DNA from: Lachnospiraceae bacterium
GTDB taxonomy: Bacteria > Bacillota > Clostridia > Lachnospirales > Lachnospiraceae
NCBI GenBank assembly: GCA_015056925.1
Contig: SVFJ01000017.1
Span: forward strand, 1-47,132
Direction of reading: 5' to 3'
DNA: 47,132 nucleotides
Shown: positions 23,574-36,084 of the stretch, piece by piece
Numbering within the stretch: the first letter of the stretch is position 1
Layout: each line of letters begins with the position of its first letter
The notes under the pieces: model-generated
What the model was told of the DNA's origin: nothing
The model's input: only the letters and a program-made list of their open reading frames with translations
Database searches by the model: none
Made by a program: the position numbers and the translations under genes

Positions 23574-24221
23574 ATGGGAAAGATAGAAGCAATTTTATTT
23601 GATTTGGATGGAACTTTATGGGATTCGGCAGATGGTGTATTAAAGACTTGGAATATGGTCATTGAAAAGCATCCTGAGTGCAAGAGAGGTCAACTGACCC
23701 AAGAGGAGCTTGGTAGTTACTTTGGACTGCCGATGAAGGAAATTGCAGCAAGGATGTTTACAGTCTGTACAGCTGATGAGCAACAGCAGTTAATGGAAGA
23801 ATGCTGTGAGCTTGAGAATAATTATCTGAGCGAGCATGGTGGAATTCTCTTTCCAAAGCTTGAAGAAACACTAGCAGAGCTTAAGAAGGATTACAAGCTG
23901 TTTGTTGTTAGTAATTGTCAGAGTGGCTATATTGAAGCATTTATTAAGGCTCATAAGCTGGAAGCATATTTTGATGATACCCAGTGTTGGGGCGATAACA
24001 TGGTGCCAAAGGGCGAGAACAATAAGTTCATTATGGAGCGTAACAAGATTCAGAATGCAGTCTATGTTGGTGATACAGCAGGAGATGAGGAGTCTGCAAG
24101 AGTTGCGGGTATTCCTTTCGTATTCGCGGCATATGGATTTGGAGAGGCGGTGGAGCCTGATTATAGGATAGATGCATTTGAGGAGCTCGCGATACTTATG
24201 AAGAATATCAGTGTATTGTAG
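23574..24221 (+). CDS. HAD-superfamily hydrolase (phosphoglycolate phosphatase-like)
   Basis: A 215-aa cytosolic phosphatase. Motif I is FDLDGTLWDS (nucleophile Asp near residue 10), motif II VVSN (about 112), motif III the Lys in MVPKGENN, and motif IV YVGDTAGDEESA. A helical C1 cap (about 17-85) gives substrate specificity. Resembles Gph/PGP-like enzymes, but the true substrate is unknown. The gene is last in the metG-side transcript and ends before a strong terminator that also marks the left edge of the A/T-rich island. Confidence 0.9.
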   Translation: MGKIEAILFDLDGTLWDSADGVLKTWNMVIEKHPECKRGQLTQEELGSYFGLPMKEIAARMFTVCTADEQQQLMEECCELENNYLSEHGGILFPKLEETLAELKKDYKLFVVSNCQSGYIEAFIKAHKLEAYFDDTQCWGDNMVPKGENNKFIMERNKIQNAVYVGDTAGDEESARVAGIPFVFAAYGFGEAVEPDYRIDAFEELAILMKNISVL

Positions 24222-24247
24222 TTATAATTTGATTAATTATAGATGAG

Positions 24248-24290
24248 ACGAGAGGTCAATTGACAATAATGTCAACTGACCTCTCGTTTT
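24248..24290 (+). terminator. Strong terminator at the left edge of the island
   Basis: CGAGAGGTCA (24249-24258) pairs with TGACCTCTCG (24277-24286); after one mismatch a further TTGACA/TGTCAA pairs around loop ATAA. TTTT follows. From here rightward the base composition becomes clearly more A/T-rich. Confidence 0.9.
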
Positions 24291-24317
24291 GCAATGAATA
24301 TAAGAATGTAAGAAATT

Positions 24318-24779
24318 TTACGCTACTATATTGGGATTTATTCCGACATAAATGTCTATGATAGAGTTTACCGAGATTGCTGAATCGTGCCGAATAATAA
24401 TGTTATAGTATTTTGTTATCGCTTCATAAGAATTTTCAATTAAATGTTCTCGAAGTTTCTTTTGTGTTTCGCTTAGCATATTAATGGAACCCTCATGTCG
24501 GACTTTTATTGCATGAATTAGTTTGAAACACGAAAGAAATGAAAAGTGTTCATTATCCTCAAATTTGGAATCAATAGGAATTAGTATATCTAAAATAATA
24601 TCTCTTGAATCATTAATATATTCAATAGAAGTAATGATTTTATTTTTGGGGGTAAATCCAATAGTTTCAATATACTTCTCTATGTACGTAATAATTTCCC
24701 AGATATTTTCTATTTGTGTAGTGCATCGATAACAAAGAATATTTGGCACGATTAATGATTGGTTTTTTAAAAATTGAAT
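24318..24779 (-). CDS. GyrI-like (effector-binding fold) small protein, possible AUU start
   Basis: About 153 aa. It begins with QFLKNQSLIVPNILCYRCTT, has a central IITSIEYINDSRDIILDILIPID strand pair, KVRHEGSINML, and ends VNSIIDIYVGINPNIV. This duplicated alpha-beta pattern resembles GyrI-like/DUF5085 effector-binding proteins without a DNA-binding domain. The only canonical upstream start, ATG 24818, has no ribosome site. AAAGGAGG (minus strand, 24787-24794) points to ATC 24782 or ATT 24779 instead, hence the chosen start. It is divergent from the peptide operon; a ligand-binding role is inference. Confidence 0.6.
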   Translation of the reverse strand: MQFLKNQSLIVPNILCYRCTTQIENIWEIITYIEKYIETIGFTPKNKIITSIEYINDSRDIILDILIPIDSKFEDNEHFSFLSCFKLIHAIKVRHEGSINMLSETQKKLREHLIENSYEAITKYYNIIIRHDSAISVNSIIDIYVGINPNIVA

Positions 24780-24811
24780 GATAGCGCCTCCTTTCCCTCT
24801 GCATATATAAA

Positions 24812-24823
24812 TATACATGTATA
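24812..24823. promoter_or_regulatory. TATACATGTATA palindrome in divergent region
   Basis: A perfect 12-bp palindrome between the divergent GyrI-like and peptide-operon genes. It could be an operator or simply A/T-rich promoter DNA; nothing else distinguishes it. Confidence 0.3.
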
Positions 24824-24848
24824 CTATGCGAGAAGTTGATTATAAGGA

Positions 24849-25079
24849 GTGAAGAGGCATGATTTTGGAGTGAATAATAAAGACGAGAAGAAAAAAGTTC
24901 ATTTACTCTATTTTGCGGTTTGTTTACTCGAATTTTATAGTTTTTGTGATAGAAAAATTATAGACTTCAATACAGAGATGAACAACAAGTCATCTTTGCA
25001 ACAAATAATTCTAGATTCATACAAGCTTTATGATGAATATGATTCGGTTGCAAACGAATCAAATAAAATAAGGAGGTAA
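24849..25079 (+). CDS. Uncertain small protein ahead of the peptide precursor
   Basis: Open frame of 76 codons from GTG 24849, or 69 from GTG 24870. The GTG at 24849 lies inside AAGGAG. The second GTG overlaps the stop of a four-codon frame (ATG ATT TTG GAG TGA). The product would be hydrophobic-amphipathic (HLLYFAVCLLEFYSF) with a polar C-terminal half; I recognise no family. Its last codons contain the AGGAGG used by the precursor gene, so translation could be coupled. Against it, a putative LytTR direct repeat lies within the frame, and the operon mRNA may start inside it near 24970. It may be an accessory peptide, an alternative precursor or not a gene. Confidence 0.4.
   Translation: MKRHDFGVNNKDEKKKVHLLYFAVCLLEFYSFCDRKIIDFNTEMNNKSSLQQIILDSYKLYDEYDSVANESNKIRR
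24902..24963 (+). promoter_or_regulatory. Putative LytTR-type direct repeat and promoter of the RiPP operon
   Basis: TTTACTC at 24902-24908 and 24923-24929, 21 bases apart, with TTATAG at 24935-24940. A TATAGA at 24959-24964 is a candidate -10, 30 bases after the second repeat. The same layout occurs at 34368-34406. LytTR regulators bind direct repeats about 21-22 bp apart. Caveat: the repeats also encode Leu-Leu pairs seven residues apart in the frame above. Confidence 0.5.
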
Positions 25080-25084
25080 AAATA

Positions 25085-25234
25085 ATGTTAGAACTCATTA
25101 ATAAGGATGTAGCTGAAGAAGCAATGAATTGTACATTAATTGATTTTGATGATTGTGCATTTTGTGATGGTGAACGTAATGATAATGATGGATGTAAATA
25201 TTGCGATGGTCAGTTTTATGATTTAATTGATTAA
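25085..25234 (+). CDS. Ranthipeptide-like RiPP precursor, 49 aa
   Basis: The leader-like part MLELINKDVAEEAMN is followed by a core with five cysteines: 16, 24, 27, 37 and 40. Three Cys-x3-Asp pairs are present (C16-D20, C24-D28, C37-D41), the spacing of Cys-to-Asp thioether links in freyrasin-type ranthipeptides. Two CxxCDG units (24-29 and 37-42) form an internal duplication. It is strongly acidic. AGGAGG (25071-25076) lies 8 bases before ATG. It is followed by a hairpin attenuator and a radical SAM maturase. It is below usual gene-calling lengths. The identity as precursor is inferred from motif, position and size. Confidence 0.82.
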   Translation: MLELINKDVAEEAMNCTLIDFDDCAFCDGERNDNDGCKYCDGQFYDLID

Positions 25235-25246
25235 TTTACAAATGTA

Positions 25247-25276
25247 AAGTGCTCGCTTAAGAAAGTGAGCACTTTT
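25247..25276 (+). terminator. Attenuating hairpin between precursor and maturase genes
   Basis: AAGTGCTCGCTT (25247-25258) pairs with AAGTGAGCACTT (25263-25274) with one G-U pair, loop AAGA, followed by TT. Partial read-through would make precursor in excess over the biosynthetic enzymes, the usual arrangement in RiPP operons. Confidence 0.85.
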
Positions 25277-25292
25277 CTAGAAATGAGGGAAT

Positions 25293-26573
25293 ATGAGAAA
25301 TCTTATTGAAAATAATGATTATAAAGTTTTTATAGAGAATGACAAAAAGTATATCTATATGTCAGATACAGGAAAAATATATGGAACAGATGAGGAGATA
25401 GAGAAAGTATTAGAAGATGAAAGCTTGTTTCTAGATGTTACAGAAAAAAGAAAAAAGATTTCACAGAAGAAAATTGAGGAGATGACGGTAGGTTCCATTT
25501 CTTTATTAGTAATACAAGGGTGTAATTTGCGCTGTACATATTGTTATGGAGAAGATGGACAATATCAAGATTCTGGAATTATGGATAAAGATACAGCTCT
25601 AAAGTCGATTGAGTTTTTTGTAAACCAATCCCCTTTGGAGGACATTAACATTTGTTTCTTTGGTGGAGAACCATTAATGAATTTTTCGGTTATAAGAGAA
25701 GTTGTAAACTATTGTCATGAAATCGAAAAAAATGGTAGAAAGAAAATTCGTTTTTCAATGACTACGAATGGAACATTGATTAATGAAGAAATTGAAGAGT
25801 TTATTTTAGAAAATAAAATTGCAGTTCAAATTAGTTTGGATGGAGACAAAAAGACTCAGGATAAAAATCGATTTGATGCAAGTCGGTGTGGTACATACGA
25901 CAGGGTAATTGAGAATACAAAAAGTTTGAGGGAGAAAGGTGCTCTAGGAGTACGAGCAACGTTAACGCCATTCAATATGAACGTTAAAGAGATATATAGA
26001 CATCTAGATTCTCTTAATTTTAATAAAATCATTATTTCTCCAGCTTTCAATCTTATGGCAGATGAAGATTATGATGTGTTAGCAGAGAAGTATATTGAAT
26101 GGTATAGAGATTTAGAATCAGAATTAAAAAAGGGAAATTACCAATTTGTAAGAAAGGCAAAATTATTTAAGCAAGAAATACAGCGAATTGATAGAGCTTT
26201 GGTCAGAACAATGTCGTGTGGTGTTGGTAAGAATTTAGTAGCTGTTGATATACATGGAAATGTTTTTCCGTGTCAACGTTTTGTTTCTATGAAAGACTAC
26301 TGTATAGGAAGTATAAATGAAGGGCTTCATGGACAAAGGAGCTTTTTGAAAAGTGTAAATGCTATGGAGAATGATAAGTGTAAGGAGTGTTGGATTAGAA
26401 ATCTTTGTGTGGCAGGATGTCCGTTCTGTAATGCAGCAGATAATGGAGATATTCATAAGAAGAATGAAATCTGTTGTGAGTACGAAAAGAAAGTTTACGA
26501 GGAATTGATTAGAATATACTTAAGGTTAAGTGAAGATGAGAAAAAATTGCTGTTGGATGTAAGAACGATGTAA
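25293..26573 (+). CDS. Radical SAM/SPASM peptide maturase
   Basis: A 426-aa enzyme expected to install thioether (or related) crosslinks in the precursor. Residues 1-65 resemble a leader-binding N-terminal module. The radical SAM cluster motif is C77-x3-C81-x2-C84 (CNLRCTYCY), with FFGGEPL (122-128) and SMTTNGT. The C-terminal SPASM region has many cysteines (309, 327, 363, 366, 372, 376, 379, 394, 395), enough for two auxiliary Fe-S clusters: SCGVGKN, GNVFPCQRF, CKECWIRNLCVAGCPFC. It belongs to the broad PapB/QhpD/SCIFF-maturase grouping. GAGGGA precedes ATG. Crosslink chemistry is inferred from the precursor motif. Confidence 0.92.
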   Translation: MRNLIENNDYKVFIENDKKYIYMSDTGKIYGTDEEIEKVLEDESLFLDVTEKRKKISQKKIEEMTVGSISLLVIQGCNLRCTYCYGEDGQYQDSGIMDKDTALKSIEFFVNQSPLEDINICFFGGEPLMNFSVIREVVNYCHEIEKNGRKKIRFSMTTNGTLINEEIEEFILENKIAVQISLDGDKKTQDKNRFDASRCGTYDRVIENTKSLREKGALGVRATLTPFNMNVKEIYRHLDSLNFNKIIISPAFNLMADEDYDVLAEKYIEWYRDLESELKKGNYQFVRKAKLFKQEIQRIDRALVRTMSCGVGKNLVAVDIHGNVFPCQRFVSMKDYCIGSINEGLHGQRSFLKSVNAMENDKCKECWIRNLCVAGCPFCNAADNGDIHKKNEICCEYEKKVYEELIRIYLRLSEDEKKLLLDVRTM

Positions 26574-26619
26574 TGAAAAGATATTTTGTTGATTACATTT
26601 CAAGATAGGAGTTTTGCGC

Positions 26620-28287
26620 ATGAAAGTAACAATGAATAGTGAATTCACATATTTAAAAATAATACGAAAATTTTGGAAGCATAATTTAATATGTTTTATT
26701 TTATTAATAATGTACTCATTTTTAAATATATTATATCCGTATTTTGTGCAGCAACTCATAGATTTAGGTATAGGAAATATGAGTGTACATAACGTATTTT
26801 ATTTTGCGACAATGATGATTGTTACCATTATGCTTAGTATAATGACGGGCTATATTATGAAAATGAATTATATACGACTGGGACAGAAGATATCTTTATA
26901 TATTCGAGAAAAAATATTAAGAGGTTTTGATAACTATTCCCTTGGTTTTTTTCAGAAAAATAAGACGGGAGATATAGTTTCTGTACTGGATAATGATGTA
27001 CGTAATGTACAAACTTTATATGCGTATATCATAAGTGATTTTGCGTCAAATATTTTTATTTTTGTTGGTATTTCATATACTATGTTAAAAATAGATTTGT
27101 TTGTTACTTTGCTTATTATTATCCTAATTTGTATATTCTCGGTATTTCACAAAAATATGGGAGCTGGCTTGAAAAAATCGAGTAGCGAATTGAGCTGCGC
27201 AAGAGGCGATTTACAATCCTTTGAGCATGAATTTTTCAACAATTATTATGAGATAAAAAATTTAAATGGAATAAGGTATTTTGATAAAAAATTATTAAAA
27301 TATCAAAAAAAACTTATCGAAATGGAATTAAGAAATGCAAAAATAAAGGCCTTTTCGACACAATATGGATTTATGTTTCAAAATTTATGTTTGGTTATTG
27401 CGTTTATTTATGGTGGAGTAAATGTGATGGAGGGGAAGTTAACGGTGGGAACATTGTTTTCAATGATTATGTATATTCAAAAATTATTTTCACCGGTTCG
27501 CTCATTATTTGATTTATATATGGAGATAAAGAAGAATCAGGCATCTGTCCAAAGGATAGATACTTTGATAAATCAAAATCAATATTATTGTGATTTTGGG
27601 AATGAAGAGTTTCCTGTGAAACACCACGATATAGCAATTGATAATTTGTCTTTTGCTTATGAAGAAAAAAATATTTTTTATAATTTCCGATTTCGTATTG
27701 AAAAAGGAGATAAAATTGCTTTGTTAGGTTCAAATGGAAAAGGAAAAACAACCCTAACGAAATTTTTACTTCGTTCTGTAGCTGGTTATCAAGGTGAGAT
27801 TAGAATTGATACCGTGAATTCTGTAAATATTAGTGACAGGTGTTATAGAAAGCATGTAGTCGGTTTGTCACAAAAAGTAGTAATATTTTCAGGAACAATA
27901 TATGAAAACGTTACTTTGTATGATTACAGCGTAAAGAAGGAGGATGTAAAGAAGGCATTAGAAAAAGTAGGTTTTTACAATGAGATTGAGAGACTTCCTT
28001 TGGGAATTGATACCTTACTAGGTGGAAATGGTATTAATTTATCTGGAGGTCAAGAACAAAAGATTCATCTCGCAAGATTATATGTGTTAAATCCGGATGT
28101 CATTATTTTAGATGAACCAACATCTGCTATAGATGATAAATCAGAATCGATAATATATGATAATCTTTTTTTGCATTTTAGTGATAAAACCATCTTGGTA
28201 ATTTCACATAAGAAGGAAGTTTTGAAATATTGTAATAAAATAATTGATTTGGATCAATTGGATTATGGCTGCAAGCAAGTTGTTTAA
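26620..28287 (+). CDS. ABC exporter (fused membrane and ATPase domains), no peptidase domain
   Basis: A 555-aa half-transporter working as a homodimer. Six membrane helices (about 1-310), then the ATPase: Walker A GSNGKGKTT (about 368-376), Q-loop near LSQKVVIFSG, signature LSGGQ (about 477), Walker B VIILDEPTSA. It starts directly with the membrane domain, so the C39 peptidase found in many bacteriocin exporters is absent and leader removal must be done by something else. Probable cargo is the modified peptide. AGGAG lies 8 bases before ATG 26620. It follows the maturase gene by 46 bases and is very A/T-rich. Confidence 0.92.
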   Translation: MKVTMNSEFTYLKIIRKFWKHNLICFILLIMYSFLNILYPYFVQQLIDLGIGNMSVHNVFYFATMMIVTIMLSIMTGYIMKMNYIRLGQKISLYIREKILRGFDNYSLGFFQKNKTGDIVSVLDNDVRNVQTLYAYIISDFASNIFIFVGISYTMLKIDLFVTLLIIILICIFSVFHKNMGAGLKKSSSELSCARGDLQSFEHEFFNNYYEIKNLNGIRYFDKKLLKYQKKLIEMELRNAKIKAFSTQYGFMFQNLCLVIAFIYGGVNVMEGKLTVGTLFSMIMYIQKLFSPVRSLFDLYMEIKKNQASVQRIDTLINQNQYYCDFGNEEFPVKHHDIAIDNLSFAYEEKNIFYNFRFRIEKGDKIALLGSNGKGKTTLTKFLLRSVAGYQGEIRIDTVNSVNISDRCYRKHVVGLSQKVVIFSGTIYENVTLYDYSVKKEDVKKALEKVGFYNEIERLPLGIDTLLGGNGINLSGGQEQKIHLARLYVLNPDVIILDEPTSAIDDKSESIIYDNLFLHFSDKTILVISHKKEVLKYCNKIIDLDQLDYGCKQVV

Positions 28288-28328
28288 TCTTGTAAAAGGT
28301 GGAAAGAAGATTTATTAGAGGAATAGTG

Positions 28329-29285
28329 ATGAATTTCGGTAATGATGGAATACAAGTTTATCTAGCTGGGGAAGTACATGGAGTGATTCAAAACGCAGAA
28401 ATTAAATTTCAAATATTTGAATATCTATTATCCAATTATGGTGTCAAAAAACTTCTTGTTGAAATGGGATATTATGATAGCCTGGCTATAAGTGCATATC
28501 TAGAAAACGGAAAAGAAGATATATTAAAAAGTGTTTTAGGGAAATATTCGACCAATTATTTGAATACAGAAGAGGAATACAACTTTTGGAGAAGAATGTA
28601 CAAATTAAATAACAAATTGCAAGAGGAACAAAAAATAAAGGTTGTTGGAGTAGATTGCAATGGACAAATTGATGTGTTGTATAGATATATATTATACTTG
28701 CTTGAATCTCAGAAAGAATCATTAATTCTTTCTGAGAAAGTTATGGAATATAAGAATACTTTAAAGAGTGGAAGAATAAGAGAAGCAGAGGTTCTTTCAA
28801 GCGAATTAGATTGTTTGTTACATAATTTTATATATTCTGCATCCCAGGACGAGATTGTCTTAAAAAAATTATTTAAACAAATGTTAGCATATGGTAAGAG
28901 AATAATGTATCCAGAAAAGAAAAGGGAACTGAGAGAGGAATTTATTTATAATAGCATAAAGGAGGAGTTGGAAAAAGGCGAAATTATGTTTGGACAATTT
29001 GGATATAGTCATGTCATAAGTATTTATGCAAATATCTTATCTGCTGCAGATAGAGTTGTGCAAGACATAGATTCGGCATGTAGAAAATTAGTCTATGTAT
29101 ATAAGAATTGCAAGTATTTTATTGTTCGTGATGGGGACAAACAATATATTGATTTAAATTCAAAAATAAGTCTATTTAATCGTGACGAATCTTGCATTGA
29201 GAAAAAAAATGATAAATGGGGAATTGTAGAAGAAGCAGGTATATATTACATACTAATTGATAATATTAATCACATCTTTATATAA
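28329..29285 (+). CDS. Erythromycin-esterase/TIKI-superfamily hydrolase in the RiPP operon
   Basis: A 318-aa cytoplasmic protein with no signal peptide. Segments follow the EreA/ChaN/TraB/TIKI superfamily: YLAGEVHG with G14-x-x-H17, the Glu in KKLLVEMGYYDS (E45), EEEYNFWRRMYKLNN then IKVVGVDCN (the R...N, G-x-D pattern of erythromycin esterases), and a second G225-x-x-H228 in FGQFGYSHV. Paired GxxH motifs are the catalytic hallmark of the superfamily, whose members include esterases and TIKI peptidases. In this operon it could remove the leader, hydrolyse an ester or amide, or protect the cell. ATG 28329 has AGAGGA 6 bases before it; GTG 28299 is an alternative. Confidence 0.75.
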   Translation: MNFGNDGIQVYLAGEVHGVIQNAEIKFQIFEYLLSNYGVKKLLVEMGYYDSLAISAYLENGKEDILKSVLGKYSTNYLNTEEEYNFWRRMYKLNNKLQEEQKIKVVGVDCNGQIDVLYRYILYLLESQKESLILSEKVMEYKNTLKSGRIREAEVLSSELDCLLHNFIYSASQDEIVLKKLFKQMLAYGKRIMYPEKKRELREEFIYNSIKEELEKGEIMFGQFGYSHVISIYANILSAADRVVQDIDSACRKLVYVYKNCKYFIVRDGDKQYIDLNSKISLFNRDESCIEKKNDKWGIVEEAGIYYILIDNINHIFI

Positions 29286-29316
29286 ATAAGATTGAGGAAA
29301 GAAAAGGTGACAATGA

Positions 29317-30084
29317 ATGGAAAAGATACTGCAGGTAAAAGAACTTGAAAAAAGTTATGGAAATAGCAAGGATAATAAAACTCTTGCGGTTAATAATGTC
29401 AGTTTTGAACTTCAAAGAGGTGAGTTTGTAGGGATTATGGGAGCTTCAGGTTCTGGAAAAACTACCCTTTTAAATTGCATTTCAACTATTGATGATGTTA
29501 GTGGTGGACATATTTATCTTAATGGAAAAGATACGACAGCAATTAAGGAAAAGCAGTTATCGGAATTTCGGAGAAAAAATCTTGGGTTTATATTTCAAGA
29601 TTACAATCTGTTAGATACCTTGTCTTTGTATGAAAACATTGCATTGGCACTTTCGATTAATAATGTGGAAGCTTCGATTGTAAGTGAGAGAGTTGAACAA
29701 ATCGCTAAGAGATTAGGAATAGACCAGATATTAGATCGATATCCATATCAAGTATCTGGAGGACAGAAGCAAAGATGCGCGTGTGCAAGGGCAATTGTTC
29801 ATGAACCACAACTTATATTAGCAGATGAGCCAACAGGAGCATTAGATAGTTATTCTGCAAGAATATTGTTAGAAACAATAAGGCTTATTAATGAGGAGTT
29901 TAAGACTACAATCTTAATGGTTACACATGATGCTGTAGCAGCTAGTTACGCAGATCGTATCATTTTCTTAAAAGACGGTAGTATATATAACGAACTATCT
30001 AAAGAAAGTAGTACAAGAAATGCTTTCTTTAATAGGATTATGGATGTAATGATTGAGATAGGAGGCGGTTTGTCTAATGAATAA
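29317..30084 (+). CDS. BceA-type ABC transporter ATPase
   Basis: A 255-aa cytoplasmic ATPase: Walker A GASGSGKTT (about 43-51), Q-loop FIFQDYNLLDTLSLYENIAL, signature VSGGQKQRCACARA, Walker B LILADEPTGALD and MVTHD. This is the LolD/MacB/BceA group that partners with FtsX-like permeases. The gene overlaps the permease start by 8 bases. Together they form a peptide-detoxification or immunity transporter, most likely protecting against the peptide made by this operon. Confidence 0.94.
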   Translation: MEKILQVKELEKSYGNSKDNKTLAVNNVSFELQRGEFVGIMGASGSGKTTLLNCISTIDDVSGGHIYLNGKDTTAIKEKQLSEFRRKNLGFIFQDYNLLDTLSLYENIALALSINNVEASIVSERVEQIAKRLGIDQILDRYPYQVSGGQKQRCACARAIVHEPQLILADEPTGALDSYSARILLETIRLINEEFKTTILMVTHDAVAASYADRIIFLKDGSIYNELSKESSTRNAFFNRIMDVMIEIGGGLSNE

Positions 30085-32302
30085 AAATATGGTATTACGT
30101 AGTGTTAGAAAATCAATAAAGGATTATTTGATTTACATGCTTACGCTAATTCTATGTGTTTCACTTTTTTATGCCTTTCTATCTATATCAAGTAAATATT
30201 ACAAACCTATGGTGGGGGAACAATATGATATCACTATTTTAAGTGATGGAATGAAGATGATTATATGTGTCATAACATGTTTGATTGTTTTTTTAGTTAA
30301 GTATGTTAATGAATATATGTTACGTAGAAAAAAAAGAGAATATGCGATTTTGGCTGTGATAGGAATGGAACGAAGAGTAATCGCACAGAGTTTTTTTTCG
30401 GAAACCTTGATAATGGGAGTGTTTTCTATTATTGTGGGAATATTTGCAGGTTCATTTATTTCACAGATGATATCTGCCATGCTTTTAAAAGTTTATCGTG
30501 GAAAATACCAATTTGAATTGATGTTTTATCCGGACACAATATGGTTGACTGTTTTGTTTTTTGTAATATGCTTTTGTATTGTAGGATTAATGAATTACAG
30601 AACCTTGTGCAAAATTCGAATTATAGAGATGCTAAAAGGAGAAAAAGAGAATGAAAATAGTGAACAGTTAGGTAAAGGCATACGTATAATTACATATTTG
30701 TTTTATGCATTCACTATTATCATTGTGAAAAATGCAATTACTGATTTATATTATTATGATGTACGGTATTCTTTGCTAGTAAAAGCAGTTTTTATAGGTA
30801 ATCTATTGTTTCCATGTTTAACGATTATTATAGGATTGATAAGGAAAATAAGACAGGGTAAAAATGATCACCTTTTACTTATGATTTTTGTAATAAATAT
30901 TCTATGTACAATTATATTTATAGCATGGATGCCTATCATACAAAATAAATATAATTTTGGATTTGGGAGCGATGCAACCATACCTCATATATTATTTTTG
31001 GTGGTAAATGTAGTTTATGTGATTTTCTTAATCTTCCATATGCTTGCACACCAATTGGTCAGAATAAGAGGGGGAAGAAAAAAAATAACGTTACATAAAG
31101 ATAATTTATTTCTTTTAGGGCAGATAAGTTCTAAGCTAGGAACTAATACAAGGGCAATGAGTTTGATTAGCATAACAATGCTTCTTGCTGTTATTATGTT
31201 TATAATGTTGCCTTTGCTTGATGGATGGATGTTTGGTTATCTAGATACAAAAACAACATATGCAATTCAAATGTATTCAAGATACAATAAAACATATAGT
31301 CTAGAGGAAGTGAAAGATATCAATTATACATATATAGAAGAGTTATTGGAATCTTATAATCTTGATATTGAATGGAGTGTTTTGGTAGAATCATATCTAC
31401 TTGAAGAAGAGCAGTTTTTTGAACGACAGCGACAGGATTTTCCAGTGTTAGCAATTTCCTTATCAGACTATAATGCATTAAGATATAGAAATGATTTATC
31501 TGGTGTAGTTCTTGAAAATGACGAATTTTTAATGCAATGGCAATCTTTAGTAACAGAAAAAGAAATAGAAGAGCATATGGTGAATAATCAATTTATTCGA
31601 GCAGATGAGAAGACGTTGCATTTAGCTTCTACGGATATTGAGAACAGTGACATTGGAGAAAGTATCTATAATAATTATACGGATGTAGTGTATGTATTAC
31701 CTGATGAGGTCTGTGAAGATTTGATTGCAGTAAATTATAATTATTATATTGATACGAAGATACCGGTTGCATATCAGTTCGCCCTGAGGCTAGAAGATGA
31801 GTTTCACAAGCAATATGGTAATCAAGAAGATGGTGTACAGAACTATATCAGAATTGCTACTTTGCAGGAGAATTCTGTATATAGAGATAGTTTTATTTTG
31901 CGAGCGAGCTTGACGTACTCTGCAATAGTTTTGTTGGTTATATGTTTTACCATATTAGCTCTGCAACAATTGTATGATGCTTCAAATTATAAAGCAAGAT
32001 TTGATATTTTATATAGGTTAGGTGTGGACCGAAAACAAATAAGTACGCTGATTTTTAAACAAATATTTTTTTGGTTTGGGGTGCCTGTACTCATTGCTAC
32101 TTTGTTTTCATTAGTATTTGGGGGATACTTTTTTTCTCTTTTTTCAATGCAGATTGATGCATATGTAGGGGGAGAACAGCTATTAATTCAAATATCAAAA
32201 ATAATGATTATATTGGTTATGTTATTGTTGGTATATTTTGAAATAACCAAGTATTTGTTCAAAAGGACAATATCGCCATTAGGTAATTGTAGGATCAAGT
32301 AA
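30077..32302 (+). CDS. BceB-type FtsX-family permease (peptide immunity)
   Basis: A 741-aa membrane protein with the BceB plan: about ten helices, four near the N-terminus, FtsX-type segments near 60-180 (VNEYMLRRKKREYAILAVIGMERR) and 620-735 (ARFDILYRLGVDRKQIS), and a large extracellular domain of roughly 220 residues (about 390-615) between helices 7 and 8. That domain recognises peptide or lipid-peptide complexes in BceAB systems. The usual BceRS two-component partners are absent; an AgrC/LytTR pair lies convergently instead. Its 3' end overlaps that kinase gene by 24 bases. AGGAGG precedes ATG. Confidence 0.92.
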   Translation: MNKNMVLRSVRKSIKDYLIYMLTLILCVSLFYAFLSISSKYYKPMVGEQYDITILSDGMKMIICVITCLIVFLVKYVNEYMLRRKKREYAILAVIGMERRVIAQSFFSETLIMGVFSIIVGIFAGSFISQMISAMLLKVYRGKYQFELMFYPDTIWLTVLFFVICFCIVGLMNYRTLCKIRIIEMLKGEKENENSEQLGKGIRIITYLFYAFTIIIVKNAITDLYYYDVRYSLLVKAVFIGNLLFPCLTIIIGLIRKIRQGKNDHLLLMIFVINILCTIIFIAWMPIIQNKYNFGFGSDATIPHILFLVVNVVYVIFLIFHMLAHQLVRIRGGRKKITLHKDNLFLLGQISSKLGTNTRAMSLISITMLLAVIMFIMLPLLDGWMFGYLDTKTTYAIQMYSRYNKTYSLEEVKDINYTYIEELLESYNLDIEWSVLVESYLLEEEQFFERQRQDFPVLAISLSDYNALRYRNDLSGVVLENDEFLMQWQSLVTEKEIEEHMVNNQFIRADEKTLHLASTDIENSDIGESIYNNYTDVVYVLPDEVCEDLIAVNYNYYIDTKIPVAYQFALRLEDEFHKQYGNQEDGVQNYIRIATLQENSVYRDSFILRASLTYSAIVLLVICFTILALQQLYDASNYKARFDILYRLGVDRKQISTLIFKQIFFWFGVPVLIATLFSLVFGGYFFSLFSMQIDAYVGGEQLLIQISKIMIILVMLLLVYFEITKYLFKRTISPLGNCRIK

Positions 32303-33598
32303 AAGCGATATATCTAATATAAATTGATTGTCGGAGATGCTGATATTTGTGTTACCGTTGTATTTCTGTACAGTTTTCATGATATTAGCCAATCCAAAAC
32401 CATGTAAACTTTTATTTTTCTTTGATGTAACAATATGCCCTTTTTCTTTATAGATAGATTCAAATATTGGATTTGATATATTTAAGAAAAAGTAACCTTG
32501 ACGAAAATCAGAAACAATATGAATGTATTGGTTTTCGTTTGTGTTTGATTTACAGCAGGCTTCGATAGCGTTATCTATAGCGTTTGCCAAAATGGTACAC
32601 AAGTCAATATTGCGAATTCCATTTGTGGGAACATATCCTTTGAAGTGAATATATATGTTCTTGGATTCGCTGTATTGGCTTTTATCATCTAATAAAGCGT
32701 CTATAATAACACTGCCTGTATCATATTTAGGTTTGGAACCAGATGAAAGGTCAACGATATCGTTTATGTATTCTAATGCTTGAGATATATCATTTGCTTC
32801 CAATATACTTTCTAGACATAGTATATGATTTTGAAAATCATGGCGAAAGCTACGAAATTCATCATAGATTGTGTTTATTTTTTCGTAATAATTGACTTGG
32901 TTCTCAATTTGTTTTGATAACAAATCAGACAACTCAGTTTTTTCTTGCTCTGAAATAGCAATTCTGATAATGCTAGTAATGACAGCGAATAGGATAAAGA
33001 GCAGTAAAATTGCACAAATTCGTATAATATTAGTTGTTTTAGCATTGTTATAGGAATAAGTAACCATATCTATTAGAAGAGATATCAACATAATAGTAAT
33101 ATTAATTAGTATGAATACATATGATTTTATCTTGCTGATATACTTGGCAAATGCACTTTCCAAATGATGTGATTTAATAGTATATATGCATACAAACAAA
33201 ATGATGCCCAGTAATATTTTGGAAAGCAAATAAAAACCATTTGATATATTGTCTATAGATAAAAAAAGTGCGGTGATAGCACTAAATAGTGGTTCTATAA
33301 ATAAGGATAAACTTGATAGCAATGTTAGTTTAAGACTGATATGACGAAAGATGAGAAAGAAAATCCATATTTTCGAACTGAAGTAGATAATCCCAATTAT
33401 ATTGTAGACCGGTGAACCATCTAAACATCGATAGGCATCAGAAGTGGTATAGGAAGTAAGGATTGCTTGACTTAGTAATAGTAAATAAGCAATCCAATTA
33501 CGTTTGGGGAATTGAAAATTAAATGCAATTTGCAAAAAATGCATTGTACAGGATAAATAGAAAAAAACTGTTATTGCATAAATGAAATAAAAAAGCAT
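32279..33598 (-). CDS. AgrC-like sensor histidine kinase (GHKL type)
   Basis: A 439-aa membrane kinase: six hydrophobic helices (about 1-212), a dimerisation helix with FRHDFQNH (phosphorylated His at about 253), then the GHKL ATP-binding domain (CTILANAIDNAIEAC, HGFGLANIMKTV). This HPK10 architecture is used by AgrC, ComD and similar peptide-pheromone receptors. It is co-transcribed with, and 10 bases downstream of, the LytTR regulator. No AgrB or AgrD homologue is evident in the window, so if it senses a peptide the signal is of another kind (candidates: the 9-aa peptide at 34475, or the operon product). Confidence 0.9.
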   Translation of the reverse strand: MLFYFIYAITVFFYLSCTMHFLQIAFNFQFPKRNWIAYLLLLSQAILTSYTTSDAYRCLDGSPVYNIIGIIYFSSKIWIFFLIFRHISLKLTLLSSLSLFIEPLFSAITALFLSIDNISNGFYLLSKILLGIILFVCIYTIKSHHLESAFAKYISKIKSYVFILINITIMLISLLIDMVTYSYNNAKTTNIIRICAILLLFILFAVITSIIRIAISEQEKTELSDLLSKQIENQVNYYEKINTIYDEFRSFRHDFQNHILCLESILEANDISQALEYINDIVDLSSGSKPKYDTGSVIIDALLDDKSQYSESKNIYIHFKGYVPTNGIRNIDLCTILANAIDNAIEACCKSNTNENQYIHIVSDFRQGYFFLNISNPIFESIYKEKGHIVTSKKNKSLHGFGLANIMKTVQKYNGNTNISISDNQFILDISLLLDPTIT

Positions 33599-33608
33599 TG
33601 CAAATACC

Positions 33609-34313
33609 TCATGAAAAATTGTGACTTTTTATATGTGCTAAAAAGGCATTTTTAAAGCCTGTCAGCTTTGTTTTGCTGATAAGAGCTTTTTCATTATTTG
33701 TGAATGTAATATCGTTATTAGTATGAGAAACGATATGATTGAAATTTACTAAATAAGAACGATGACAACGGTAAAAAGTATCCAGAGTAAGGGTTGCTGC
33801 TAATTCTGCCAAAGTTTTTTTATAGAGAAGGTTGTCATCAACGGTGCGAATGTAGCAATACTTATCACTGGCCTCAATATAAATAATATCCTTTTGATTA
33901 ATCTTTTTTGTATTATCATCAATCTTGAGCATAATGTAGTTGCTAGTATCTTGACTTTTTAGATAACTATCCATAGCATCGGTTAATTTTGCCATATTAA
34001 TAGGTTTCATTAAGAAACGAAACGTATTTACTTCAAATACATCAAACACAATATTAGGATAGCTTGTTAAAAAGATAATCGTGGTCTGATTATTCTTTTG
34101 TCTTAATTTTCTTGCAGTATCCAGACCATTAAGAGTATTCATCTGATAATCCATGAAAATCACATCATATTCTTTATTAGAAGCAAGCAGGTCTTTACCG
34201 TTCGTATATTCATAGTAAATAATATCAAGCGCTCTGAGTTTGGCATATTGGTCCATATATTTTTTGAATTCAATGTGAAATCGCATTTCATCATCGCATA
34301 TCGCTATTTTCAT
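33609..34313 (-). CDS. LytTR-family response regulator (AgrA-like)
   Basis: A 234-aa regulator. The receiver domain (1-120) has the acidic pocket CDD and phospho-acceptor D55 in VIFMDYQMN. The LytTR DNA-binding domain (about 135-234) includes KKINQKDIIYIEASDKYCYIRT, FYRCHRSYLVNFNHI and the terminal LTGFKNAFLAH. Such regulators bind direct repeats about 21 bp apart, matching the repeats at 34368-34395 and 24902-24929. The start ATG has no ribosome site next to it; AAGGAG (minus strand, 34348-34353) is separated from it by a hairpin. Confidence 0.93.
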   Translation of the reverse strand: MKIAICDDEMRFHIEFKKYMDQYAKLRALDIIYYEYTNGKDLLASNKEYDVIFMDYQMNTLNGLDTARKLRQKNNQTTIIFLTSYPNIVFDVFEVNTFRFLMKPINMAKLTDAMDSYLKSQDTSNYIMLKIDDNTKKINQKDIIYIEASDKYCYIRTVDDNLLYKKTLAELAATLTLDTFYRCHRSYLVNFNHIVSHTNNDITFTNNEKALISKTKLTGFKNAFLAHIKSHNFS

Positions 34314-34323
34314 ATGTGTTCAG

Positions 34324-34353
34324 CACTATTTAGGTATAGTGTTTTATCTCCTT
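34324..34353 (-). promoter_or_regulatory. Ribosome site separated from the LytTR start by a hairpin
   Basis: Reading leftward: AAGGAG (34353-34348), then a perfect hairpin ATAGTG-loop-CACTAT in + coordinates 34324-34341 (6-bp stem, 6-base loop), then ATG at 34313. Without the hairpin the spacing is about 16 bases. No other start codon lies within reach of this AAGGAG. Confidence 0.45.
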
Positions 34354-34367
34354 ACTAATTTTTACTG

Positions 34368-34432
34368 TTTACTCTCAATATAATCCCATTTACTCCACAA
34401 TTATAGATTCAAGACACCCAAAGTATTAATAT
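34368..34432 (+). promoter_or_regulatory. Putative LytTR direct repeat upstream of the 9-aa peptide ORF
   Basis: TTTACTC at 34368-34374 and 34389-34395 (21-base period), TTATAG at 34401-34406, and a TATTAAT at 34424-34430 as candidate -10. The layout matches 24902-24963. A TATAAT (34379-34384) also lies between the repeats, so the regulator could instead repress a promoter there or act on the divergent regulator gene. Confidence 0.5.
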
Positions 34433-34474
34433 ATCCATATAAGGTTTACGGAAGAGAAAAGGAGGGTACATGAT

Positions 34475-34504
34475 ATGGATTTATGGGGTTGGTTATTTGG
34501 ATAA
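34475..34504 (+). CDS. 9-codon ORF, candidate leaderless signal peptide
   Basis: It reads MDLWGWLFG, a hydrophobic peptide with two Trp. AAAGGAGGG (34458-34466) ends 8 bases before this ATG. An overlapping ATG at 34470 opens a 23-codon frame but sits too close to the ribosome site. The peptide lies divergent to a LytTR regulator gene and downstream of its putative binding repeats. Very short exported pheromones without leaders are known in streptococci (e.g. the SpeB-inducing peptide). Nothing proves translation. A 24-codon frame at 34528-34602 (begins MNIFNLAH, ends CLCVRE) is a weaker alternative with no clear ribosome site. Confidence 0.4.
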   Translation: MDLWGWLFG

Positions 34505-34636
34505 TCATAAATGGAAAAATATAAATCATGAATATTTTTAATCTAGCACATCAATTGGGAAAAATCAATCGTTTTAAAGGATGTTTATGTGTTAGAGAAT
34601 AAAGATTTGCAAAAAGAAAATACGAGCACAAAAAAG
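34505..34636. other. Stretch after the 9-aa ORF
   Basis: About 130 bases of A/T-rich sequence. It holds the weak 24-codon frame at 34528-34602 and an 18-codon GTG frame at 34589 preceded by AAAGGATG. Neither is convincing. No promoter is evident. Confidence 0.35.
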
Positions 34637-34678
34637 ATAAACTAATCCGTGAGAATATTCTCTCACGGATTAGTTTAT
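34637..34678. terminator. Strong bidirectional terminator at the right edge of the island
   Basis: A perfect 18-bp stem, 34637-34654 with 34661-34678, loop ATATTC. Read leftward it runs into CTTTTTT and ends the histidine kinase transcript, whose stop codon lies in the stem. Base composition changes here from A/T-rich (left) to typical chromosomal (right). Confidence 0.92.
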
Positions 34679-36084
34679 GGCGCTTTTTCTAATGTAAAGA
34701 TAAATTCAGTTCCTTCACCCTCTGTGCTGACAACATCAATATTCTCATTGTGAGAGTGAATGATTTCCTTGGCAATGGAAAGACCAAGACCTGTTCCTTT
34801 CTTATCCTTTCCTCTGGATAAATCGGTCTTATAGAAGCGGTTCCATATCAGCTTAAGGCTTTCTTTAGGGATACCGATTCCGTGGTCTTTTACAGAGACT
34901 AAGAGCTTATTGGAACGTTCAATGGTCTCAATCTTGATAGAGGAGTTCTTGTGACTGAATTTAATCGCATTGTCTACAAGGTTATAAAGAACTTGCTGAA
35001 TCTTAACCATATCAGCATTTACGTTCATAAATTCTCCGGTCAATACCAATTCAATCGTAATCAGCTTATTGCGACAGGTTCCTTCAAAGGAAGCTGCAGT
35101 ATTCTTAATAACCTGATTAATATCGAATACTGTTTTGTCCAGTATCATACCTTTGGTGTTCAGATTATTAAGCGTTAATAGTGAGTTTGTAAGCTTTGTC
35201 AGACGGTCCGTCTCATTTAATACGACACCCATGTATTTCTCATGAAGCTCCGGTGGAATCGTTCCGTCCAGCATAGCCTCTAAGTAGCCTCGCATGGAGG
35301 TAAGAGGAGAACGGAAATCATGAGAAATATTGGCAACCAGACGCTTCTGATTGTCTTCACTCTTAGCAACCTCACTTGCCATGTATGCAAGGGAGGCAGC
35401 AAGATAGCCTATCTCATCTTCACTGTCTACCTGAAATTCGTAGTGAAAATTACCTACGGCATACTGCTCGGTTGCATGTGTAATCTTACGAAGCGGAATA
35501 TATACAATGCTTGTAAAGAATAACAAAATAATCAGTGACAGTAGGAATAAAATTACTAATGTTAAATACGAAATATTAAGTAATGAGTCACATGACTTTT
35601 GCAAATCTGCCATAGAGCCGTGAATGATTACATAGCCTTGTACCTTGTACTGTGAAGTAATCGGTGCAAAAGCAGATATGGTATCCTCCTCAAACATTCC
35701 AAAGAAATCACCTACGGTATAGTAGGAACTGCCTGTAATGGTAGGTGTAAAGTTCGGTATGGTGGTAGGGTTCTCGATATCCAATGGTGAACGGGAATCA
35801 ACAACCACAAGTCCGGAGGGGTTTACAATCCATACAGGAGCATTCAGGAAGGTATCAATTGCCTCTACCTGACGCCATACAGATTCCAAGGTAACCTCAC
35901 TGTTATAAAGGTCCGCAGCGTAGGTGTTGGAGATTAAGACAGCCTCTTTATAGAGGGCATTGGCACGTTCACGTTTAAGATGCTCTAAGGTCATGCTGGA
36001 AGTAAAGGATGCTACCACGATAAAGCCGAATAATCCGAAAATAATATAGGCAAGTACAAACTTTAAATATAGTGTACGTTTCAT
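34675..36084 (-). CDS. Sensor histidine kinase (HAMP, PhoR/BaeS-like)
   Basis: A 469-aa two-helix membrane kinase. N-terminal helix (about 8-32), extracellular domain (about 33-170), second helix (about 172-197), HAMP (about 198-250), HisKA with NISHDFRSPLTSMRGYLEAML (phospho-His about 254), and an HATPase domain with VDNAIKFS, DHGIGIP, FYKTD and KGTGLGLSIAKEII. It is paired with the OmpR-type regulator 16 bases upstream. The signal is unknown; the extracellular domain resembles those of cell-envelope sensors. Confidence 0.93.
   Translation of the reverse strand: MKRTLYLKFVLAYIIFGLFGFIVVASFTSSMTLEHLKRERANALYKEAVLISNTYAADLYNSEVTLESVWRQVEAIDTFLNAPVWIVNPSGLVVVDSRSPLDIENPTTIPNFTPTITGSSYYTVGDFFGMFEEDTISAFAPITSQYKVQGYVIIHGSMADLQKSCDSLLNISYLTLVILFLLSLIILLFFTSIVYIPLRKITHATEQYAVGNFHYEFQVDSEDEIGYLAASLAYMASEVAKSEDNQKRLVANISHDFRSPLTSMRGYLEAMLDGTIPPELHEKYMGVVLNETDRLTKLTNSLLTLNNLNTKGMILDKTVFDINQVIKNTAASFEGTCRNKLITIELVLTGEFMNVNADMVKIQQVLYNLVDNAIKFSHKNSSIKIETIERSNKLLVSVKDHGIGIPKESLKLIWNRFYKTDLSRGKDKKGTGLGLSIAKEIIHSHNENIDVVSTEGEGTEFIFTLEKAP

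Follow-up and report, generated by a model that had tools for sequence, protein, structure and literature searches.

In those parts of the literature that were examined, freyrasin (PapA/PapB), from Paenibacillus polymyxa, is the one product of a PapB-type enzyme in nature that has been characterised. In the accessible portion of one study, PapB was reported to accept CXnD motifs with n from 0 to 6, and nested rings (PMC9413430). The locus analysed here lies in a Lachnospiraceae bacterium, on a stretch of 47,132 bases that forms a single contig (SVFJ01000017.1; the window) of a 3.5-Mb draft genome, and it combines a radical S-adenosylmethionine (SAM)/SPASM maturase of the PapB family with a short Cys- and Asp-containing precursor. 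The original prediction, made from the sequence, had proposed an apparently complete ranthipeptide-like operon at 24849-32302, that is, a cluster for a ribosomally synthesised and post-translationally modified peptide (RiPP). The best explanation, to which a probability of about 0.8 is assigned as a whole, is a mobile PapB-type (freyrasin-like) ranthipeptide cluster on foreign-looking DNA, working by the mechanism proposed below. The cluster is real, apparently complete and of the PapB ranthipeptide type. No published description of it was found in the literature, which was mostly judged without full texts. The two central genes are:

25085..25234, + strand: precursor peptide, 49 amino acids (CX3D motifs, codon score, relatives)
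25293..26573, + strand: PapB-family radical SAM/SPASM maturase; its leader-binding region at the N-terminus, which resembles a RiPP recognition element (RRE), is shortened (NF047865, tree, AlphaFold)

The maturase scored 374.3 bits against NF047865 (PapB family ranthipeptide maturase; cut-off 340), and the same cut-off was passed by all seven other genomes scored and by Paenibacillus ottowii. Two further maturases were termed PapB-like by tblastn identity, those of the IMG/VR contig L178 (34%) and of Paraclostridium bifermentans (49.6%), the latter also by its position in the tree. In that tree of 52 proteins, 12 PapB-like rows were separated from 40 other radical SAM/SPASM rows by a branch with support of 95/78, and the window maturase clustered with those of P. 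bifermentans and genome G629 (99/85); long branches were flagged by the tree tool. The radical SAM domain was matched by PF04055 (E value 5e-18), and the Pfam SPASM model scored 17.6, below its cut-off of 21.5. The CX3CX2C radical SAM motif (C77, C81, C84) and the SPASM cysteines (C309, C327, C363, C366, C372, C376, C395) were invariant in two alignments of 8. The AlphaFold model was good overall (predicted local distance difference test [pLDDT] 81.9, predicted template modelling score 0.82); its N-terminal leader-binding region consisted of three strands and one helix, and a second helix (43-51) was of low confidence. An assignment to the SCIFF maturases was rejected, as TIGR03974 gave 231.8 bits against a cut-off of 425 and the protein stood on the other side of the tree. 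Maturases above the NF047865 cut-off were rare: they occurred in 3 of 38 genomes of the genus, 3 of 391 of the class sample and 1 of 398 of the phylum sample, the window's own genome being included in each count. That genome also carries two further radical SAM/SPASM relatives, at G000:C28:44733-45929 and G000:C99:2996-4054, of which the former fell among the control rows in the tree, next to maturases from Lachnospiraceae.

The precursor gene, which encodes MLELINKDVAEEAMNCTLIDFDDCAFCDGERNDNDGCKYCDGQFYDLID, is preceded by a strong ribosome site, and its frame had the best codon score (+0.33), the other frames being negative. The peptide carries a leader Asn at position 6 and, at C16, C24 and C37, CX3D motifs, whose Cys and Asp are the pair joined by PapB; C24/C27 and C37/C40 each belong to a nested CX2CD...D unit. 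Peptides with both CX2CD and CX3D motifs were found beside 9 of the 11 other PapB-like maturase loci examined. The first eight were those of a P. bifermentans plasmid, G629, an A. prevotii plasmid (identical in G546), G402, G131, G278, G294 and Paenibacillus ottowii, and the ninth, found later, was that of L178. Thus the search for precursor and maturase pairs that had been suggested as a check was largely successful, the exceptions being G431, where the PapB-like locus had no CX2CD peptide, and G403, where there was no CX2CD and a nearby peptide had one CX3D and one CX3E. With the NF047865 score and the tree, these peptides narrowed the predicted ranthipeptide-like class to the PapB type. The window, P. 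bifermentans and G629 precursors are close kin, and that of G131 is kin of that of G402. A leader Asn close to the start (residue 5, 6 or 9) was present in 10 of 10 precursors; in the window it was kept despite the shortened leader-binding region of the maturase.

A scan for small open reading frames (ORFs) with at least one CX2CD and at least two CX3D, covering 196 partly overlapping loci (1.95 Mb), gave ten peptides, nine of them beside PapB-like maturases. A search with the maturase alignment gave 80 loci, mostly with other SPASM maturases; in four of them a small ORF in the vicinity passed a loose Cys/Asp filter, and only that of Paenibacillus ottowii was precursor-like. The original prediction had also held that such a precursor would be missed by routine annotation. 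This was borne out for the P. bifermentans homologue, which had no listed gene in an incomplete gene table, and not for the Anaerococcus homologue, which was annotated 'hypothetical'. No match was found between the window precursor and TIGR03973, which we take to be the SCIFF precursor model. In the available part of a rumen survey, TIGR03973 is the sole ranthipeptide rule (PMC13289728).

Some results on the precursor qualify the assignment or weigh against it. The window peptide alone is not striking, with 3 CX3D motifs against 1.17 expected and 367 of 5000 shuffles as good, and the strength of the CX3D case therefore comes from the relatives. Over nine precursors, window included, Asp stood at Cys+4 in 28 cases against 7.6 expected, and CX2C occurred 17 times against 5.4 expected, neither count being reached in 5000 shuffles; the CX3D enrichment is partly built in, since 6 of the 9 peptides were chosen by motif filters (five via CX3D/E and Paenibacillus ottowii via CX2C(D/E), with P. 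bifermentans and G294 chosen by adjacency alone). The freyrasin precursor model NF037957 (cut-off 30) did not match the window precursor at E values up to 0.1; it gave 44.8 bits for L178, 22.3 for Paenibacillus ottowii and 17.8 for G402. In L178 (3759-5358), the precursor that passes this model lies beside a PapB-like maturase in two overlapping frames.

The inner Cys of CX2CD was followed by Asp or Glu at +4, +5 or +6 in all 17 motifs of the nine precursors, against 10.2 expected (3 of 20000 shuffles as good). With one member per kin group, the count was 12 of 12 (36 of 20000 shuffles). Asp at +6, mostly as CX2CDGX3D, followed both inner Cys of the window precursor, those of P. bifermentans, G629 and G294, and the inner Cys of the second A. 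prevotii unit. It was present for 6 of the 9 inner Cys without a +4 partner (shuffle P of 1e-4, or 0.001 for the best of eight offsets), a post hoc pattern that rests on about three lineages. In L178, found afterwards, both inner Cys had Asp at +4. As L178 passes NF037957 with a nested CX2CDX2D, nested CX3D/CX3D rings belong to the freyrasin family, as is also stated in the portion of PMC9413430 consulted. A nested CX3D/CX5D arrangement is a plausible variant of this at the window locus and would be an apparently new ring pattern. From the pattern of Asp after the inner Cys, the rings are predicted to be nested and all five Cys to be engaged in thioethers, the links being C16-D20, C24-D28, C27-D33, C37-D41 and C40-D46.

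The cluster occupies a segment that differs in composition from the rest of the window:

24222..34674, no strand: A/T-rich segment, read as an insertion (GC content, gap in genus genomes)

The GC content per kb was 0.285-0.328 across 24-35 kb and 0.335-0.455 elsewhere in the window, so the A/T-rich island of the original prediction was recovered. The 10.4-kb segment is flanked by a HAD phosphatase gene (ending at 24221) and a convergent sensor-kinase gene (34675-36084). Of the 37 other genomes in the genus, 12 had both flanking genes on one contig. The flanks were less than 100 bp apart in five of these 12, that is, the site was empty, and the gap was at least 5.1 kb in the remaining seven; the site junctions and three larger gaps were inspected by reading the sequence. 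The gap between the HAD and sensor-kinase genes held 5-8 kb of other genes in three relatives (L161-L163; G409, G406 and G407), and the site is therefore variable. The A/T-rich segment is best read as an insertion into this site. A DNA-level search of the genus gave, outside the own genome, short partial matches only. No relatives came from a single-sequence scan of the genome contigs, and an Rfam scan of 24-35 kb gave no match.

All ORFs predicted originally at 24849-32302 were present, in the predicted order on one strand and with open frames. The idea of a complete operon thus held for the listed genes; the cluster is longer (24318-34313), and three genes on the - strand (24318-24818, 32279-33598 and 33609-34313) had been overlooked. 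The other features of the cluster are:

24318..24818, - strand: 166-amino-acid GyrI-like/DUF5085-fold protein, divergent from the operon (DUF5085, AlphaFold, Foldseek)
24849..25079, + strand: small ORF of 76 amino acids (weak coding score, start uncertain)
25247..25274, + strand: hairpin between the precursor and maturase genes (folding z-score)
26620..28287, + strand: ATP-binding cassette (ABC) exporter without C39 peptidase domain (ABC_membrane, ABC_tran)
28299..29285, + strand: erythromycin-esterase-like (Ere-like) protein with two GxxH motifs (PF05139, PDB 2rad, homologue)
29317..30084, + strand: BceA-type ATPase (ABC_tran)
30077..32302, + strand: BceB-type FtsX permease (FtsX stretches, transmembrane-like segments)
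32279..33598, - strand: GHKL (AgrC-like) sensor kinase, convergent with BceB (family models, R. albus match)
33609..34313, - strand: LytTR response regulator (family models, R. albus match)

The 76-residue ORF had a weak codon score (+0.10). A Shine-Dalgarno-like AAGGAG overlaps its GTG at 24849, and a start at GTG 24870 is possible. It had no relative beyond chance level in the PapB-like cluster stretches searched. The predicted hairpin after the precursor gene was confirmed by folding (z of -3.7, with none of 200 shuffles folding as well) and was not listed by the terminator scan. A hairpin was seen in 6 of 10 gaps between a precursor gene and the next gene, window included and whichever gene is next; these minimum-energy folds were inspected without shuffles, and two of the ten gaps, both without a hairpin, are identical. 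The window hairpin is putatively an attenuator or a 3' stabiliser of the mRNA.

The Ere-like protein matched PF05139 below the cut-off (E value 0.0034; 17.6 bits against 26.4) and PDB entry 2rad (E value 6e-5). Its homologue in G629 (30.9% identity) directly adjoins the maturase gene and keeps both GxxH motifs, G24..H27 and G235..H238. Searches with this protein gave weak matches in only three other genomes of the genus and three weak matches among plasmids; one of the latter, on a P. sordellii plasmid, had no radical SAM gene listed in its neighbourhood. The Ere-like protein is a candidate leader peptidase or tailoring enzyme. Graspetide loci with Ere-like and Tiki-type proteins, role unclear, are described in the accessible text of PMC8939145.

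A BceAB transporter consists of a BceA ATPase and an FtsX permease with a large extracellular loop, beside a two-component system. The window permease has two FtsX stretches and about 12 transmembrane-like segments, with a gap of ~250 residues. No BceA-, BceB- or BceAB-specific model was matched by the two window proteins, and the adjoining kinase is GHKL/AgrC-like; the names BceA (29317-30084) and BceB (30077-32302) are thus a tentative assignment. The G431 and A. prevotii maturases each lie next to an ATPase related to that of the window (58.7% and 47.8% identity, respectively), and the window permease had matches of about 23-31% beside the G431 and A. prevotii/G546 maturases. In P. bifermentans and G403, matches (40%) were found for BceA only. 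Two relatives have unusual arrangements around the maturase. In G431 (L059, 7120-9186), where no precursor was seen, the maturase shares a single open frame with the N-terminal portion of an ABC exporter, which precedes it, a fusion due to either a deletion or an assembly join. In G403 (L062, 8188-12044), three consecutive radical SAM genes accompany an ABC ATPase, a permease and a small Cys-containing ORF, possibly a different peptide system. The G403 maturases were not accepted as PapB family: the tree placed them on the PapB side, but the higher score was 322 bits (below 340) and the other maturase formed a long branch.

The original prediction had assigned immunity to BceAB; it had overlooked a further candidate for immunity (or sensing) as well as the accompanying two-component system. 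The kinase (42.6% over 373 residues) and the LytTR regulator (59.8% over 234 residues) matched proteins of the Ruminococcus albus sactipeptide plasmid pRUMAL03, where a 26% identical relative of the 166-residue protein is their neighbour. Next to this three-gene set lie a radical SAM gene and two precursors annotated as huazacin family. No clear LytTR site was found in a repeat search of two intergenic stretches. At 34461-34505 (+ strand), divergent from the LytTR regulator gene, a strong AGGAGG ribosome site precedes a 9-codon ORF (ATG 34476, MDLWGWLFG) or a 23-codon ORF (ATG 34470); the product may be a leader or signal peptide, unless the arrangement is due to chance.

The 166-residue protein matched DUF5085 below the Pfam cut-off (E value 0.0044; 17.9 against 30). 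At E values up to 1, DUF5085 matched four and GyrI-like two of the seven members of its family. Its AlphaFold model (pLDDT 85.4) has two strand-helix-strand-strand repeats, a duplicated SHS2 fold. Foldseek matched it to CTR107, EcmrR, the albicidin resistance protein STM3175, the self-immunity protein CtaZ with closthioamide, GyrI, BmrR and Rob, at template-modelling scores of about 0.5-0.7. As this fold is known from both immunity proteins and regulators, it fits an immunity protein or a sensor equally, and the modelled protein is a candidate for cytoplasmic immunity or product sensing. Within the genus it was found in its own genome only (1 of 38), and distant matches occurred in 6 of 298 other genomes of the family sample. 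The relatives in G131 and G224 lie near an ABC exporter whose C39 peptidase domain was confirmed, and those in G139 and G092 near ABC exporters; no exporter was nearby in G007 and G182, the G182 match being interrupted by stops. In the available parts of two reports, the DUF5085 protein TipE and ExiA/ExiB are immunity proteins of type VII toxins, and ExiA/ExiB have a GyrI-like fold and act as a pair (PMC10434224, PMC12744356). The five papers found to name DUF5085 concern, as far as their text was available, staphylococci or streptococci.

In the proposed mechanism, the maturase would bind the precursor leader and link each Cys sulphur to the beta carbon of an Asp further along the chain, a non-alpha carbon as is characteristic of ranthipeptide thioethers, forming in-line or outer CX3D rings from C16, C24 and C37 and nested inner CX5D rings from C27 to D33 and C40 to D46. 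The modified peptide would be exported by the ABC transporter, and the leader would probably be removed by the Ere-like protein, because the exporter has no C39 domain. The hairpin may keep the precursor mRNA in excess of the enzyme mRNA. An antibacterial peptide is the most likely product, which BceAB would remove at the membrane and the 166-residue protein would bind inside the cell, and expression may be controlled by the GHKL/LytTR pair.

The ring pattern is the part of this scheme for which another chemistry is possible, with appreciable though smaller weight: only the three CX3D thioethers would form, and Cys27 and Cys40 would be disulphide-paired or free. The preference of PapB for CX3D over CX0D and CX6D in nested peptides (PMC9413430, in its accessible portion) and the strict CX3D use that a review gives from earlier work (PMC8172795, likewise) speak for three rings and so count against the nested CX5D rings. 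The three-ring pattern leaves unexplained the acidic residue at +4 to +6 of every inner Cys, even in G294, which has two Cys only and Asp at +6, and the nested CX2CDX2D of L178, a freyrasin-model peptide. That the CX2C pairs bind metal in a zinc-ribbon-like manner, with no cross-links, is suggested by their CX2C-X9-CX2C spacing, which is like that of zinc knuckles. The units include the following Asp in CX3D register, and they are single in G294, P. bifermentans and G629, so that they cannot alone form a four-Cys site; metal binding is accordingly judged very improbable.

The shortened leader-binding region (25293-25490), some 20-30 residues shorter than in relatives and with a pLDDT under 50 at residues 42-61, could mean a degenerate cluster with an inactive maturase. 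This is improbable, as the frames are open, no catalytic or SPASM cysteine is missing, codon scoring marks the precursor frame as coding and the leader Asn is kept. The product could instead be a signalling peptide, with the GHKL/LytTR pair as its receptor and the 166-residue protein and BceAB sensing or importing it. AgrC-like kinases and LytTR regulators suit peptide signalling, and several Foldseek matches of the 166-residue model are effector domains of regulators (EcmrR, BmrR, Rob). The BceA/BceB-like or other ABC transport genes beside most other maturases, and the relatives of the 166-residue protein near C39 exporters (G131, G224) and ABC exporters (G139, G092), argue against signalling, which is considered unlikely. 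Besides the shortened maturase region, it speaks against the main explanation that, of 10 other clusters searched (12 stretches), only one had an Ere-like gene, and that the P. bifermentans permease is annotated FtsX-like, yet no match to it was found with the window BceB.

Two points look new, the nested unit with Asp at +6 of the inner Cys and the larger cluster with a gene of GyrI-like/DUF5085 fold. In a tentative extension, the CX2CDX4D unit would be a ranthipeptide building block in its own right, its outer thioether ring closing at +4 and its inner one at +6, and the LytTR/GHKL/GyrI-like-DUF5085-fold genes would form a swappable control-and-immunity cassette shared with a chemically different radical SAM peptide. 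If so, DUF5085 proteins would have relatives serving RiPP bacteriocins. Little is known of the role of ranthipeptides, and the locus connects them with genes of immunity type, one of which has an antibiotic/toxin immunity fold. The locus and its relatives offer compact natural substrates with clear ring prediction, here for a maturase seemingly without part of its leader-binding domain.

In comparison with freyrasin, made without the full PapA sequence or cluster and with the nested CX2CDX2D form taken from L178, the window shares the PapB-family maturase, the Cys/Asp CX3D motifs, the leader Asn and, by prediction, the in-line and nested rings. It differs in the inner ring, predicted as CX5D (+6) rather than CX3D, in the precursor, which NF037957 does not match, and in the shortened RRE-like region. 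The SCIFF (thermocellin-type) systems also have radical SAM/SPASM thioether maturases, from which that of the window is separated by the model score and the tree given above. With TipE, ExiA/ExiB and CtaZ (crystallised with closthioamide), the window shares a weak DUF5085 match and the GyrI-like fold. It differs from the DUF5085 proteins in scoring below the curated cut-off and in having one gene where ExiA/ExiB are a pair; the fold is also that of regulators, and binding or protection is a candidate role in the window.

The closest maturases are those of the P. bifermentans CP124692 plasmid (44.6% identity) and G629 (43.6%), clusters for which no description was found in the literature. Both have the same precursor layout, CX3D followed by CX2CDGX3D. 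In P. bifermentans, an exporter related to that of the window (36.6% over 541 residues) adjoins the maturase, and a BceA-like ATPase, an FtsX-annotated permease and a two-component pair are present; G629 has the Ere-like gene. They differ from the window in having one nested unit instead of two and no relative of the 166-residue protein in the stretches searched. That protein (26%), the LytTR regulator (60%) and the GHKL kinase (43%) are instead shared with the huazacin-type sactipeptide cluster on pRUMAL03 of R. albus 7, in which the precursor is different and the maturase only 24% identical.

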